Of a stretch of 64,000 nucleotides of DNA, positions 38,190 through 44,789 are shown piece after piece. A program made the position numbers and the translations under genes. Below the pieces are notes generated by a model. The model had not been told where the DNA came from, ran no database searches, and worked only from the letters and a program-made list of their open reading frames with translations. Origin of the DNA: Halobacterium jilantaiense (GTDB taxonomy: Archaea; Halobacteriota; Halobacteria; Halobacteriales; Halobacteriaceae). Positions within the stretch are counted from its first letter, which is position 1; the number at the start of each line of letters is the position of its first letter. The DNA lies in contig NZ_FOJA01000001.1 of the NCBI RefSeq assembly GCF_900110535.1, forward strand, positions 2,329,393 through 2,393,392. The letters run 5' to 3'.

Positions 38190-39500
38190 TTAGTCCTCGG
38201 ACTCGGCCGGAGCCACGTCGCCGCCCGGCACCTCGAACGGCATCTCGTCCTCGAAGTCCGGATTGAACAGCTCCAGCGCGGTCGCGATGGTCGACCAGTC
38301 GTCCTCCGCGGCCGCGTCCCGAAGACTCCGGGTGGGTGCCGCCAGCAGCTGGCTCACCAGCGCGTCCGCCATCGACTCGACGACCTCGCGCTCCGCGTCG
38401 TCCAGGTCCTCGCCGCGCTCGGCCTCCAGGCGCTGCACCGCCGTCTGGACCTCGCGCCCCTTCAGGCGGTCCGCGCTCTCGTACATCCGCGCGATGACCT
38501 CGTCTGCGCGCTTGCGCTTGTACTGCGCGAGCAGGTGCTCGAACTCCTCGGTTATCATCGCCTCGACCTCGCGGGCGGCGTCCTCGCGGCGCTCCCGGGT
38601 CGCCGCCGTCACCGCCTCCAGGTCGTCGAGGTCGTGGATGGATACCGCATCGTGCGTGCCCGCAGCCGGCGCGACGTCACGCGGCTGCGCGAGGTCGACG
38701 ACGACCGTCTCGCCCGCGTCCGAGAACGCCTGCCCCGGGAACACGTGTTCGGGGCTGCTGGTCGCCGTCACCACCACGTCGGCCGCGCCGAGGCGACCGC
38801 GGGCGTCGGCGAGGTCGGTCGTCTCGGTCGGCGCGTCCACGCTGTCGGCGACCCGGTCGGCGCGCTCGGGCGTCCGGTTCGCCACTACGACCTCGGCCAC
38901 GTCCGCGCTCGCGAACGCTTTCGCCGCCAGCGCCCCCATCTCGCCGGCACCGACCACGAGCGCGCGAGCGTCTTCCAGGTCGGTCTTCCGCTTGGCGAGC
39001 CGCACCGCCGCCGTCCCCAGCGAGGTCGCGCCCTCGTTGATTGCGGTCTCGGTGCGGGCGCGCTCGCCGACGTGCATCGCCTTCGTCACCGCCTCCCGAA
39101 GCACCCGGTCGATGCCGCCCGCGTCCTTCGCGGTGTCGTAGGCGTCCCGGAGCTGGCCGAGAATCTGGTCTTCGCCGACCACGAGCGACTCCAGACCGGC
39201 GGCCACCCGCAACAAGTGACGCAGGCTCTGCTCGTGCCCCATCGACACCGCGCCCGCACCGGCCGGGTCGAAGCCAGCCGTTCCCAGTGCCCGCCGGCCG
39301 GACGCCTGGTCTGCGGTCACGACGTAGGCTTCCACGCGGTGACACGTCTGGAGCACGAACGCCTCCTCGACGGGCGGCTGCTCGAGCAGGGCGTCCAGTG
39401 CTGCCTGCGTGGACGCGGCGCTCGCGGCAGCCAGTTCGTCGAGTGAGGCCGTCTCGTGCGAGACGCGGACGCCGGAGACGACACCAGTGTTTCCATTCAT
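38190..39500 (-). CDS. hemA: Glutamyl-tRNA reductase
   Basis: A 436-residue enzyme that makes glutamate-1-semialdehyde from glutamyl-tRNA, the first committed step of tetrapyrrole synthesis. The catalytic Cys53 lies in TCHRVE; GEDQILGQLRDAY and the NADPH-binding VVGAGEMGALAAKA follow. The ATG at 39500 overlaps the sirC stop as ATGA, marking translational coupling; a GTG at 39509 is a weaker alternative. It is the third gene of ahbAB-sirC-hemA. Confidence 0.97.
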   Translation of the reverse strand: MNGNTGVVSGVRVSHETASLDELAAASAASTQAALDALLEQPPVEEAFVLQTCHRVEAYVVTADQASGRRALGTAGFDPAGAGAVSMGHEQSLRHLLRVAAGLESLVVGEDQILGQLRDAYDTAKDAGGIDRVLREAVTKAMHVGERARTETAINEGATSLGTAAVRLAKRKTDLEDARALVVGAGEMGALAAKAFASADVAEVVVANRTPERADRVADSVDAPTETTDLADARGRLGAADVVVTATSSPEHVFPGQAFSDAGETVVVDLAQPRDVAPAAGTHDAVSIHDLDDLEAVTAATRERREDAAREVEAMITEEFEHLLAQYKRKRADEVIARMYESADRLKGREVQTAVQRLEAERGEDLDDAEREVVESMADALVSQLLAAPTRSLRDAAAEDDWSTIATALELFNPDFEDEMPFEVPGGDVAPAESED

Positions 39501-40171
39501 GTCGACCACTCTACGTCGCCGACGGCGCGCCCTACGGCGGCCTCGGCTCTCTTCCGAGCGTTAGCATCTCCGGTACGTAAAGCCTTCCAAACCGGCTCCG
39601 AACGCACGACAGCCCGTACCGCATCGCGGCGCTCCGCCGGCGGCGTTCCCGACGCCTTCAGCTCCGCCCGGAGGTCCGCGGTAAGCTCGGCCATCTCACC
39701 GGCACCGGCGAATTCGGCGTCCACCCGCTCACGGAGGTACTTCGAGAGCGCGGGGCTCCGCCCGCCGGTCGACACCGCGACGGTTACGGGGTCCTCGCCC
39801 GTCGTCGCCGGAACGACGACGTCGTCGACGCTCCGCTCCGCCTCGCCGCTGTCGCGCGCCGACGAGTCGGCGCGATTCACCAGCGCGCCGGCGTCGCGGG
39901 CCGCGTCCGCGAACGCCGCGTTCACCGCGGCAACGTCGGTCGCTGCGACGACGAGCGCGGGGTCGACCCTGGCGACCCACTCCGCGGCCTCGTCGGGACT
40001 CGGCGCAGCCTGAACGAGGGCCGCGTCGCCGAACTCGCGGTCGCCGAACTCGGGCGACAGCACGGTCACGTCGGCTTCCGCGGCGAACCGCCGGGCCTTC
40101 CGAGCGCCGACGCTGCCGCCGCCGACGACCAGCACCGACTCGTCGCGGAAGTCGTGGAACAGGGGAATCAT
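39497..40171 (-). CDS. sirC: Precorrin-2 dehydrogenase (siroheme synthase N-terminal type)
   Basis: A 224-residue NAD-dependent enzyme that oxidises precorrin-2 to sirohydrochlorin. The Rossmann motif is VLVVGGGSVGARKARRF, and the Met-initiated start PLFHDF is typical. It ends with the family's C-terminal helical domain. It lies two bases after ahbAB and overlaps hemA, so the three genes act together in the siroheme branch of tetrapyrrole synthesis. Confidence 0.93.
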   Translation of the reverse strand: MIPLFHDFRDESVLVVGGGSVGARKARRFAAEADVTVLSPEFGDREFGDAALVQAAPSPDEAAEWVARVDPALVVAATDVAAVNAAFADAARDAGALVNRADSSARDSGEAERSVDDVVVPATTGEDPVTVAVSTGGRSPALSKYLRERVDAEFAGAGEMAELTADLRAELKASGTPPAERRDAVRAVVRSEPVWKALRTGDANARKRAEAAVGRAVGDVEWST

Positions 40172-40173
40172 GC

Positions 40174-41226
40174 TCACGCGGTGTTCGCCGTCGCGCGCTC
40201 CTCCAGTCGAATGCCGGTCTTCTTCAGGATGCGCGTCGAGAACAGAGTGTCCCAGTCGTCCTCGCCCACGTCCCAGTACTCGTCCATCACCTCGCGGACC
40301 TGTTCGACGCGCTCGGCGCTCTCTTCCTCGCTGCGGCCGTGGGTCATCGCGAAGAAGTTGTACTCCCAGACGCCCTCGTGGCGCGGCCGCTCGTAGCAGT
40401 GCGTGACGAAGTCCATGCTCGCCACCGCCGGCCCGACCTCGTCGACGACCTCGTCGGGCACGTCCCAGACGGTCATCCCGTTCTCCGTGTACCCGAGCGC
40501 GTAGTGGTTCGGGATGACGCCGACACGCCGCACCTTCCCCTCGGCGTTGAACCGCCGGATGGTCTCGACGACCCACTCAGGGTCCCGACCCAGGTCGTCG
40601 GCGACCGCGCGGAACGGCGTCTCGACGACCGGCAGCCCGTCCTGAATGGCGACCACGAGGTCGCGCTCCGCCGGCGACAGACTGTCGCGGTCGGTCGGCT
40701 CGGGAGCCGTCCCCAGGTGGGAGAGGTCCACGTCCCCGTCCGACACCGGGCCGTCGACGAGGAACTTCGCCTCGACGCGGAACTCCTGTTGCTTCGGGAG
40801 ATTGTACGTCTCCTGGCCGGTCTCCTCCTCGATTTCGGCGAGGACGTCCTCGACCTCCCGGTCGGCGACGGACACGACGAACCACATGTTCAGGTGCGGG
40901 TGTTCGCGCTCGTAGTTGTGCGCGACCGCCCGCACGTCGTTGACGGTCTCCGCAATCTCGTCGAAGCGCTCCTCGGGAGCGTGCATCGCCACCAGCGACG
41001 CCGCACCGCCGATCTCCTCGGCGTTGATGAGCGCGCCGAACCGCGTCAGCACGCCCTCGTCGTTCAGGTGCTGTACCCGTTCGAGCAGTTCCTCCTCGTC
41101 CATCTCCACGCCGCGCGACCGGAGCGCCTGTGCCGCGGGCTCGAACGGTCGCTGTACGACCGGGAACCCGCCCTGGAACGCGTTCAGGACGGCACGGTCC
41201 CGGTCGTCTAGCTCCCCGATTTCCAT
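40174..41226 (-). CDS. Fused siroheme decarboxylase AhbA-AhbB
   Basis: A 350-residue protein with two Lrp/AsnC-type halves (about 1-165 and 180-350), each with an HTH-like N-terminal part and a ferredoxin-like part. AhbA and AhbB are usually separate proteins that together decarboxylate siroheme to didecarboxysiroheme in the alternative heme pathway; here they are joined in one chain. The conserved NAHYEREHP-like segment reads VAHNYEREHPHLNMWF in half one and THCYERPRHEGVWEYNFF in half two. A TTTATT element lies 28 bases before the ATG. Confidence 0.92.
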   Translation of the reverse strand: MEIGELDDRDRAVLNAFQGGFPVVQRPFEPAAQALRSRGVEMDEEELLERVQHLNDEGVLTRFGALINAEEIGGAASLVAMHAPEERFDEIAETVNDVRAVAHNYEREHPHLNMWFVVSVADREVEDVLAEIEEETGQETYNLPKQQEFRVEAKFLVDGPVSDGDVDLSHLGTAPEPTDRDSLSPAERDLVVAIQDGLPVVETPFRAVADDLGRDPEWVVETIRRFNAEGKVRRVGVIPNHYALGYTENGMTVWDVPDEVVDEVGPAVASMDFVTHCYERPRHEGVWEYNFFAMTHGRSEEESAERVEQVREVMDEYWDVGEDDWDTLFSTRILKKTGIRLEERATANTA

Positions 41227-41289: not shown

Positions 41290-41706
41290 CTACGCGTCGA
41301 AGCCGTCCTCGGTGACGGCGACGACTTCCTCGACACCGTCGACCGCCCGGATGTCGTCGAGGACCGCCTCGTGGTCGCCGGTCGCCTCCCAGTACAGCAC
41401 CACCGAGAAGACGCCCTCGCGAAGCAGCTGCTGGCACTCCCAGACGAACTCGTCGCCGTCGATGGTGAGTCCCTGGTGCTGGTTCACGCCGAACTCGTTG
41501 CTGTCGTTGCCCGAGTAGACGTACGTGTCGCCCTTCTCGGCGTGGCTGGCGATGGCAGTCCCCGCGTCCAGCGTGAGCTGGTGGAGTTTGCTCTCCTCGT
41601 CGTTGTCGTAGGCGGTGTGGACGACCGCGCCCGCGAGCTCGATGTCGCCGGGCTGCAGCAACTCGACCGTCTGCCGGTACAGGTCGGCGTTCGCCGTCTC
41701 GCTCAT
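41290..41706 (-). CDS. Conserved haloarchaeal protein, DUF5778-like
   Basis: A 138-residue soluble protein. The pattern YRQTVELLQPGDIELAGAVVHT and later DEFVWECQQLLREGVFSVVLYWE matches a haloarchaeal family I know as DUF5778. Function unknown. It is divergent from uppS and co-directional with the heme operon, 63 bases upstream of ahbAB. Confidence 0.8.
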   Translation of the reverse strand: MSETANADLYRQTVELLQPGDIELAGAVVHTAYDNDEESKLHQLTLDAGTAIASHAEKGDTYVYSGNDSNEFGVNQHQGLTIDGDEFVWECQQLLREGVFSVVLYWEATGDHEAVLDDIRAVDGVEEVVAVTEDGFDA

Positions 41707-41845: not shown

Positions 41846-42754
41846 ATGCGAGACCGGCTGCGAGACGCTGCCAGCGCCGTCTACGAGCGCGTGCTCCGCC
41901 GGGAAATCGACGGCGCGCCCGCCCACGTCGCCGTCATTCAGGACGGGAACCGTCGGTACGCCCGCGAGCACGGCGACGACGCCAGCGACGGCTACCAGTC
42001 CGGCGCGCAGACTACCGAGCAGGTGCTGGACTGGTGTGCCGACCTCGGCGTCGAGGAACTCACCCTCTACGCGTTCTCCACGGAAAACTTCGAGCGGCCC
42101 GAAGAGCAGCAGGAACACCTCTTCGACCTCCTCGAAGAGAAGCTCACGGAGTTCGCGGAGGCCGACCGCGTCCACGACGAGCGCGTCCGAATCCGCGCCA
42201 TCGGCGACACCGACCGCCTCCCCGAGCGCGTCCAGGAGGCCGTCCGGTACGCCGAATCCCGGACCGCGGGCTACGACGGCTTCGCGCTGAACGTCGCGCT
42301 CGCGTACGGCGGCCGCGACGAACTGCTGACCGCCGCCCGCGGCGTCGCCGAGGCGGTCGACACCGGCGACCTCGACCCCGCGGACGTGAACTTCGAGGCT
42401 ATCGAATCCCGACTGCACACCAGCCCCGTCGCGGACGTCGACCTCATCATCCGCACGGGGGGCGACGAGCGCACCTCGAACTTCCTGCCGTGGCACGCCA
42501 ACGGCAGCGAGGCCGCCGTCTTCTTCTGCACGCCGTACTGGCCGGAGTTCTCGAAAGTCGACTTCCTGCGTGCGGTCCGCACCTACGAGTCCCGGGAGGC
42601 GTCGTGGCGTCGGACGCGGGCCGAGCGGTCGCTCGCGCTCGTTCGCGCGCTCGGCTCCGAAGTGAAAGAGGCTCGCCGTATCCTCGACCGCTTCAAGGGG
42701 ACGCTGCCCGACCCGCCCGAGGACGTCGAGGCGGAGACGCAGTCGGCGGACTGA
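41846..42754 (+). CDS. uppS: Cis-prenyltransferase (UppS family), catalytic copy
   Basis: A 302-residue enzyme that adds isopentenyl units in cis to make the polyprenyl diphosphate precursor of the dolichol-type carrier for N-glycosylation. The catalytic Asp33 lies in IQDGNRRYAREHG. The pyrophosphate and isopentenyl diphosphate binding segment is IIRTGGDERTSNFLPW (about 201-216). Unlike many single-subunit enzymes, its C-terminus has no RxG tripeptide. It is convergent with a second, degenerate family member. The GTG at 41822 is another possible start. Confidence 0.95.
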   Translation: MRDRLRDAASAVYERVLRREIDGAPAHVAVIQDGNRRYAREHGDDASDGYQSGAQTTEQVLDWCADLGVEELTLYAFSTENFERPEEQQEHLFDLLEEKLTEFAEADRVHDERVRIRAIGDTDRLPERVQEAVRYAESRTAGYDGFALNVALAYGGRDELLTAARGVAEAVDTGDLDPADVNFEAIESRLHTSPVADVDLIIRTGGDERTSNFLPWHANGSEAAVFFCTPYWPEFSKVDFLRAVRTYESREASWRRTRAERSLALVRALGSEVKEARRILDRFKGTLPDPPEDVEAETQSAD

Positions 42755-42769
42755 CGCTGCCCGACCGAG

Positions 42770-43378
42770 TCACCGTCCGAACCGCCGCTGTCTGTTCTGG
42801 TAGTCCAGCACCGCCCGCAGGTAGTCCCGCTTCCGGAAGTCCCGCCAGTTCACGTCCGTGAAGTAGAGTTCAGAGTAGACGGACTGCCAGATCATGAAAT
42901 CTGAGAGGCGCTCGGCTCCGGTCTTGATGACGAGGTCCGGCTCGGCGGGGAAGACGAGTTCGGACTCGACGACGTCCTCGTCGATGTCCTCGGGGTCGAG
43001 GTCGCCCGAATCCACGGCCTCGGCGACGTTCCTGACGGCGGTCGCGAACTCCTGTTTGCCGCCGTGCCCGACGCTCACCTGGATGGGGGCGTCGGCGCGC
43101 TCGTCGTCGTCCGGTCCCCGGACGGCCATCTCCCGGGGAGTGTCGACGCTCGCGAGTTCGCGCTCCAGCGTGGGGACGGCGGCCTCGTCGAGGACGCTGA
43201 CGTAGACAGTGACGCGGTCGGCACCGTAGTCGAACGCCCAGCCGTAGAAGTCCGCGAGCGTGTCGTACGCACCGGCCTCCAGCAGGTCGCGTTCCGTGAT
43301 GACCACCGCGACGTGGTCGGGGCCGGCGGCGGGGTGACGGCGAACCCGGGCAGCGAGATAGTAGTCGTAGAGGGCCAC
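42770..43378 (-). CDS. Degenerate cis-prenyltransferase-like protein (possible partner subunit)
   Basis: About 202 residues of the UppS fold. In the position of the catalytic DGNRR, the aligned segment (HVAVVITERDLLEAG) has no Asp-Gly-Asn. The C-terminal part is kept: VSVGHGGKQEF, IKTGAERLSDFMIW, and the chain ends RQRRFGR, with RFG at 199-201. So this copy lacks the catalytic Asp but has the RxG end, the reverse of the neighbouring UppS. This is the arrangement of NgBR/Nus1 in two-subunit eukaryotic enzymes. The GTG at 43378 is the best start; the longer frame to 43594 is Arg/Thr-rich and lies upstream of the divergent promoter. Confidence 0.85.
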   Translation of the reverse strand: MALYDYYLAARVRRHPAAGPDHVAVVITERDLLEAGAYDTLADFYGWAFDYGADRVTVYVSVLDEAAVPTLERELASVDTPREMAVRGPDDDERADAPIQVSVGHGGKQEFATAVRNVAEAVDSGDLDPEDIDEDVVESELVFPAEPDLVIKTGAERLSDFMIWQSVYSELYFTDVNWRDFRKRDYLRAVLDYQNRQRRFGR

Positions 43379-43457
43379 GTCGGGGTCGACGCCCGCCGCC
43401 GTCCAAAACGTTGCGGGTCGCGGGTTCGGGGAAGTTAAGTGCGGGGCCGGCAAATCG

Positions 43458-44789
43458 GTGGCAGACGTGAATTGGAGTCTGCGTCGCGCCCTGGCGTTCG
43501 CGCTGGTGGCGACGCTGTCGCTGTCCGCCCCCTTCCTGGGCCGGGCAGCCGCGGTGCCGTTCGCGGTCGTCGCCGTGCTCGGAGCCGTCGTCACCGACGG
43601 CTGGCTGTTCGAGGTGTTCTCGACCGCGCAGGACCGCCGCGAGGAGCGACTGCGGACGCTCGTCGCGTTCGCGCTCGCGGCGGCCGTCGTCGGCCTGCTC
43701 GTCCCCCTGTTCGAGGTGCCGGTCGGCGTGTTCGTGGCGTCCGTGCTCGTCGTCGGCTACGGCGACCTCGGCCGCCGGCTCGTCCTGCAGGTGCGGGAGA
43801 ACCGCACGCTCTCGATGGTCGGATTCGTGGTGGTGGCGGCCGCCGCTGCGTTCGCCGGCCAGGCCGCGGTCGCGTCGTTCACCGACGGCGCTGCGAGCTA
43901 CCCGGAGTTCGTGTTCGTCGCGGCGAGCGCGGCGCTGCTCGCCGGCATCATGCGGGCGTTCTTCGTCGCGCGCGACGACCCGCTCGTGCTCGCGACCGTC
44001 GCGCTCCTGCTGTGGCTGTTCGCCGTGCTCGCGCCGCTGTCGGAACTCCCGACTGCGCTGGCGTGGGAGCGCGTGCTCGTCGCGCTCGCCGTCACCTCGG
44101 CGTTCGGGTGGGTGTCCCGGGCGCTCGGCGCGACGTCCGTCGCGGGGATGTTCACCGGTGTCTTCCTCGGGCTGCTCGCGGTCGTACTCGGCGACTACGG
44201 CTGGTTCATCGTGCTCGTCTCGTTCTTCGCGGTCGGCAGCCTCTCCACGAAGTTCCGCTACGAGCAGAAGGCCGACCGCGGCGTCGCAGAGCCGAACGAC
44301 GGCGCGCGCGGCACCGGGAACGTTCTCGGGAACTCGGCGGCCGCACTCATCGCGCTGTTGCTGTACGCCGCACACGCGCATGTGCCGCTGTCGGGCGACG
44401 TCTTCCTCTACGCGTACACCGGCAGCGTCGCGACGGCGCTGGCGGACACGCTCTCCTCGGAGGTCGGCGGGCTGTTCGACGCGCCTCGGCTGGTCACGAC
44501 GCTCGAGCGCGTCGACCCCGGGACCGACGGTGCCGTCACCTGGCAGGGCGAACTCGCCGGCCTGACCGGTGCCGGCGTCATCGCCGGGCTGTCCTTCCTC
44601 CTGTTCGACATCGGGACCACGGGCGCGGTCGTCGTCGTCGCCGCCGGCGTCGTCGGGATGACCGCCGACAGCCTCGCCGGTGCGACCATCGAGGGTCGGC
44701 GGCTCGGCAACCAGAGCGTGAACTTCCTCGCGACGCTCACGGGTGGCGTCGCTGGCGGGCTGCTCGCGCTCGCCGTCGGCCTGGCGTAG
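43458..44789 (+). CDS. DUF92/TMEM19-family membrane protein
   Basis: A 443-residue protein with about ten membrane segments. The C-terminal half carries the DUF92 signature: KFRYEQKADRGVAEPNDGARGTGNVLGNSAAAL, DTLSSEVGG and TADSLAGATIEGR. A plant member, VTE6, is a phytyl-phosphate kinase, so a role in phosphorylating a prenyl phosphate is plausible. It shares an 80-base divergent region with the degenerate prenyltransferase gene, which supports a lipid-carrier link. It starts with GTG. Confidence 0.88.
   Translation: MADVNWSLRRALAFALVATLSLSAPFLGRAAAVPFAVVAVLGAVVTDGWLFEVFSTAQDRREERLRTLVAFALAAAVVGLLVPLFEVPVGVFVASVLVVGYGDLGRRLVLQVRENRTLSMVGFVVVAAAAAFAGQAAVASFTDGAASYPEFVFVAASAALLAGIMRAFFVARDDPLVLATVALLLWLFAVLAPLSELPTALAWERVLVALAVTSAFGWVSRALGATSVAGMFTGVFLGLLAVVLGDYGWFIVLVSFFAVGSLSTKFRYEQKADRGVAEPNDGARGTGNVLGNSAAALIALLLYAAHAHVPLSGDVFLYAYTGSVATALADTLSSEVGGLFDAPRLVTTLERVDPGTDGAVTWQGELAGLTGAGVIAGLSFLLFDIGTTGAVVVVAAGVVGMTADSLAGATIEGRRLGNQSVNFLATLTGGVAGGLLALAVGLA

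Follow-up and report, generated by a model that had tools for sequence, protein, structure and literature searches.

The closest described systems are heteromeric cis-prenyltransferases (cPTs). In the human enzyme, the C-terminal RxG motif of NgBR crosses the subunit interface and takes part in the active site of DHDDS (PMC7573591), and the kcat of DHDDS alone is about 500-fold lower (PMC6921004). MM_0618/MM_1083 of Methanosarcina mazei is a heteromeric cPT with C45-50 products (Emi et al., 2019, as cited in PMC8131916), and a 2019 paper lists the UPPS of Methanosarcina acetivorans as belonging to a heteromeric complex (PMC6921004). Heteromeric cPTs are thus an enzyme kind already known from DHDDS/NgBR and, through the citing paper, from MM_0618/MM_1083. 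The literature searched, which did not include Emi 2019, Grabinska 2016 and Grabinska 2017, contained no paper on haloarchaeal UppS pairs. Relative to that literature, the extension of the split to haloarchaea and across the phylum is new, and so are the loss of the pair together with AglB, the linkage to DUF92 and the contrast with Asgard archaea.

The locus and the motifs on its two chains

The window is the whole 64,000-nucleotide stretch of DNA analysed, from the 2.95 Mb genome of the haloarchaeon Halobacterium jilantaiense. Two of its proteins are named U and N in this work (Table 1). The earlier note had described three genes here, and all three were found where it had placed them. U and N are encoded convergently, with stop codons separated by 15 bases, and are the only PF01255 genes in the whole genome. 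Human DHDDS matches U with an E value of 3.6e-42. A DUF5778 gene (41290-41706, minus strand) adjoins U and stands next to it in 90 of 149 haloarchaeal loci. At 38190-41226 a siroheme decarboxylase-like gene (Pfam) is located beside precorrin-2 dehydrogenase-like and glutamyl-tRNA reductase-like ORFs, probably forming a heme-via-siroheme cluster.

Table 1. Genes and motifs of the U/N locus (positions in the window).
Feature	Position	Strand	Evidence
U, predicted catalytic cPT subunit (UppS/DHDDS-like), 302 aa	41846..42754	+	PF01255 positions 1-216 of 219, E 3.6e-69
U D33-G34-N35, catalytic (E. coli D26-G27-N28)	41942..41950	+	Each 99% in 229 U sequences
U S253-W254-R255, at the single-chain RxG position	42602..42610	+	Alignment columns; helix continues instead (model, 237-284)
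N, predicted non-catalytic RxG-donating subunit (NgBR-like pseudo-enzyme), 202 aa, GTG start	42770..43378	-	PF01255 positions 115-219 only, E 8e-28
N R199-F200-G201, C-terminal RxG, presumed to complete the U active site	42776..42784	-	R[FY]G in 151/152 haloarchaeal N
N T28-E29-R30, in place of catalytic DGN	43289..43297	-	DGN in 0/152 haloarchaeal N
DUF92 membrane protein gene (VTE6-related family)	43458..44789	+	PF01940, E 3.3e-53; divergent from N

For the analysis of motif columns, 229 U, 197 N and 44 single-chain cPT sequences were aligned with E. coli UppS, the numbering of which is used here. In the single-chain cPTs the catalytic and RxG motifs are both conserved at 97-100%. U carries the full catalytic set (D26, N28, R30, E73, N74, R77, R194 and R200), together with G27, S71 and S202, all at 99-100%, and has no C-terminal RxG: the RRxG columns R241, R242 and G244 are occupied mainly by E/A, S and R, respectively, with no conservation. 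N has other residues in the catalytic block (T for D26 in 75%, E for G27 in 87% and R for N28 in 73% of sequences), and the region of H43, W75, R77 and E81 is mostly deleted, leaving a cPT-fold chain without the catalytic Asp/DGN and without the tunnel segment. The RRxG tail of N is conserved, with R241, R242 and G244 at 99-100% (R242 99%, G244 100%), and N of H. jilantaiense ends in R199-F200-G201-R202. Neither U nor N is a single-chain UppS by its motifs, DGN and RxG lying on different chains, and the split of motifs between them is not due to chance. These columns agree with the earlier description of a UppS that keeps the catalytic Asp33 and has no C-terminal RxG, next to a neighbour that has lost DGN and ends in RFG; the RxG position of U reads SWR, and the DGN position of N reads T-E-R.

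Single-chain models were calculated with AlphaFold2 using the window proteins aligned with related loci as input. The U model (pLDDT 91.9) folds as a cPT (Z about 28-32) and ends in one long helix (residues 237-284, pLDDT about 78-95), with no helix-turn-helix of the DHDDS type. The N model (pLDDT 86) has the cPT fold over a chain of 202 residues with a low-confidence tail. A comparison by Foldseek/VIA-align of the nearness of N to NgBR and to UppS was set aside because the Z values are tied: UppS, DHDDS and NgBR all match at Z 16-18 (NgBR at Z 16.6 over 181 residues). N starts MALYDYYLAARVRRHPAAGPDHV and has no hydrophobic stretch ahead of the domain that could correspond to the membrane anchor of NgBR.

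Distribution within and outside the Halobacteriota

At least two PF01255 genes were found in 388 of 391 haloarchaeal genomes (86 genera), and a search with N as the query gave the same distribution. The proposal that the pair is co-conserved across haloarchaea is borne out by these counts, and N is not often absent while UppS stays. The three others come from incomplete or fragmented assemblies: G072 (120 contigs) with N only, G381 (88% complete) with U only and G389 (82% complete) with neither. We read 178 haloarchaeal U and 152 haloarchaeal N sequences directly. DGNRRY is present in 173 of the 178 U, and four of the remaining five are cut by the end of the locus. N was fragmented or partly matched in G183, G235 and G385, and the broken gene of G385 is the one haloarchaeal N without a terminal R[FY]G. 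In one genus (g9 of family f4) N was matched in two pieces by the window protein and whole by the profile, which suggests a lineage-specific insertion in N. A minority of haloarchaeal genomes, G068 and G194 among them, have a second full-length catalytic copy of U.

The two genes are convergent in all 134 haloarchaeal loci that hold both in one stretch, and the gap between them has a median of about 250 bases. The linkage is not absolute: of the haloarchaeal genomes compared, about a quarter (10 of 44 with both places known) have the genes at least 20 kb from one another (20-700 kb) or on separate contigs, and both are still present.

N-profile relatives were found in 386 of 393 Halobacteriota genomes. 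Outside the haloarchaea, 54 of 60 examined genomes of the phylum combine a U-type gene of full length, which reaches Pfam position 212-218, with a degenerate N-type gene, which spans positions of about 110-219 and in family f16 begins at position 21; one genome, 64% complete, has U only. All 53 N sequences of these other Halobacteriota have a terminal R/K-x-G and no DGN, and in three divergent families (f11, f20 and f26) the similarity to N is mostly gone and the RR[FY]G ending is kept. Many of the non-haloarchaeal families also have U and N adjacent and convergent, so the arrangement is old.

Neither U nor N was found in any of the five genomes of family f18. STT3/AglB was not found in four of these five, and was present in seven of seven other Halobacteriota tested; the STT3 match of the fifth f18 genome is at a contig end in a genome that is 75% complete with 5% contamination. 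Family f18 is apparently an archaeal lineage without the carrier-lipid and N-glycosylation route, and the joint loss of the pair and STT3/AglB speaks for a part of the pair in the synthesis of the N-glycosylation carrier.

In a GTDB scan for prokaryotic relatives of human DHDDS, archaea lead. A single chain with an RRxG ending was seen in Bathyarchaeota, Hadesarchaea, Thermoplasmatota, Methanobacteria, Woesearchaeota and Thorarchaeota, and the catalytic chains of ANME-1, Syntrophoarchaeum and Methanothrix have no RRxG ending. Whole-genome checks agree with this pattern. A cPT is present in 110 of 119 Asgard genomes, and an N-type partner is absent from all 110. Essentially all complete Asgard copies span Pfam positions 1-219, RxG included, and in 20 Asgard sequences read directly a single chain, about 256 aa long, carries both DGNRR and RR[FY]G. 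Judged from these sequences, the cPT split is common to almost the whole phylum Halobacteriota and not to the archaea closest to eukaryotes.

A predicted heteromeric enzyme, its alternatives and its origin

U and N are very probably the two subunits of one heteromeric cPT that makes the glycosyl-carrier lipid. This prediction is drawn from the complementarity of the motifs, co-occurrence, co-loss, the single clade formed by each protein and the fold of each chain; the human and Methanosarcina heteromers are precedents for it. The earlier idea that the catalytic residues and the RxG of a cPT are divided between two chains passes the computational tests applied (motifs, co-retention at a distance and co-loss). 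U would bind the allylic primer and IPP and carry out the chemistry with its DGN block, S71/E73/N74/R77 and R194/R200/S202 (E. coli numbering). N, having lost the DGN block and the tunnel segment, would be a pseudo-enzyme with the cPT fold. It would dimerize with U by the interface usual in cPTs and insert its RRFG tail into the U active site, where the tail would act in trans to organize the pyrophosphate and IPP site; activity would then depend on the mixture of U and N. The product would be a long cis-polyprenyl diphosphate leading to the dolichyl-phosphate carrier (C55-C60) that serves the oligosaccharyltransferase AglB; haloarchaeal dolichols are the basis for this predicted length. Several points count against this reading: in the alignment columns N retains the equivalents of R200, S202 and E213, so N may have some other binding role; U and N are not linked in every genome; and N has no NgBR-type membrane anchor and U no helix-turn-helix tail like that of DHDDS.

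It is very unlikely that U is instead a self-sufficient homodimer in which other residues replace RxG, with N a regulator or an unrelated lipid-binding pseudo-enzyme. Some activity of a catalytic chain by itself has precedent in human DHDDS homodimers, which keep some at an about 500-fold lower kcat (PMC6921004), and in M. mazei MM_0014, which is active as a single cPT (PMC8131916). However, U has no conserved replacement for RxG (the G244 column holds R in 58%, Q in 24% and K in 4% of sequences), an RRxG tail that stays invariant as the remainder of N diverges would not be needed in a regulator, and the pair is retained together in nearly every haloarchaeal genome. A further reading would add to the heteromeric enzyme rather than replace it: U, N and DUF92 might form a dedicated dolichol module with DUF92 as a (poly)prenyl phosphate kinase. 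Among 147 haloarchaeal genomes with sufficient flanking sequence, 143 have the DUF92 gene next to N and divergent from it, as do 17 of 18 haloarchaeal stretches where U is not near and 23 non-haloarchaeal Halobacteriota genomes. The plant relative of the DUF92 family, VTE6, is a phytyl-phosphate kinase. DUF92 is also present, however, in the cPT-less family f18, in Asgard archaea and in one Methanobrevibacter genome with a single-chain cPT, and in Methanosarcinaceae it is not adjacent to N, which makes the dedicated module rather improbable. Of the earlier suggestion that DUF92 belongs to a polyprenyl/dolichol module, the conserved neighbourhood with N stands and the three-part module keeps a low probability; DUF92 is better regarded as a conserved neighbour with a presumably broader isoprenoid role than as a proven third component. 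The linkage of DUF92 to N is tighter than that of U to N.

In a careful tree calculated without NgBR, U forms one clade (99/97) and N forms one clade (100/99), which makes a single origin of each in the phylum likely; the branching order between U, N and DHDDS is not fixed by this tree. The split into U and N probably arose once, before the Halobacteriota radiation, by duplication and complementary loss. A profile built from 40 N sequences aligns with human NgBR over nearly its whole length (15-202, E 4e-10), and clades of N with NgBR (p-AU 0.787) and of U with DHDDS (p-AU 0.473) were not rejected in tests with one human sequence of each. Both results would fit descent of the archaeal pair and DHDDS/NgBR from one heteromeric ancestor, a history compatible with the heteromeric function of U and N. 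We nevertheless consider it doubtful: DHDDS falls outside the U clade of the free careful tree, and the 110 cPT-bearing Asgard genomes hold single-chain enzymes and no N-type copy. The Asgard contrast suggests that the archaeal split is of separate origin from the eukaryotic one. Since Asgard archaea keep the single-chain enzyme, we lean, if only slightly, towards a cPT that split at least twice, at the base of the Halobacteriota and on the way to eukaryotes; a homodimer in which the active site is completed by the tail of the partner would be prone to such complementary decay. Other signals were considered for the relationship of N. The C-terminal half of N is nearest by sequence to bacterial UppS (E 7e-31), and phmmer with the N-terminal half alone gave chance matches only. 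LVITE, present in haloarchaeal N and in NgBR, was rejected as a signature of common descent because other archaeal N have LVLDETD, IILKETD or LVIAEDD. Quick trees that included NgBR were dropped; they were poorly searched and long-branched, and trees with the clades constrained reached higher likelihoods than the unconstrained one.

The heteromeric reading assigns both haloarchaeal cPT genes to one enzyme and predicts that annotation of N as a second UppS is wrong. Haloferax volcanii would offer a genetically tractable system in which to study the activation of an enzyme by its dead partner subunit, a matter that bears on disease mutations of NgBR and DHDDS. As the archaea nearest to eukaryotes have single-chain enzymes, the origin of the eukaryotic dolichol-making heteromer also becomes testable.

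Comparison with known cis-prenyltransferases

The earlier note had compared the locus with the eukaryotic DHDDS/NgBR split. The comparison holds as a parallel; the split is not only eukaryotic, given the M. mazei heteromer as cited in PMC8131916, and it is a parallel rather than an established orthology, the Asgard enzymes being single-chain and the trees favouring neither view. Methanosarcina genomes have one U, one N and in some cases also an MM_0014-type cPT, so that by elimination MM_0618/MM_1083 represent the U and N families. According to the citing paper, that enzyme makes a C45-50 precursor of the glycosyl carrier. Unlike at the H. jilantaiense locus, the Methanosarcina U and N genes are unlinked and no DUF92 gene lies beside N.

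As in human DHDDS/NgBR (NUS1), the catalytic residues are on one chain and RxG is on the other, with the cPT fold in both. NgBR resembles N in having T-E for the catalytic D-G and K for R194. Unlike NgBR, N has no membrane anchor. Unlike DHDDS, U ends in its single long helix and has no helix-turn-helix of the kind used for tetramerization, and E213 is kept in U whereas DHDDS has Cys. E. coli UppS and the Asgard single-chain cPTs share the fold and catalytic residues of U but, unlike the U/N pair, hold DGN and RxG on the same chain.
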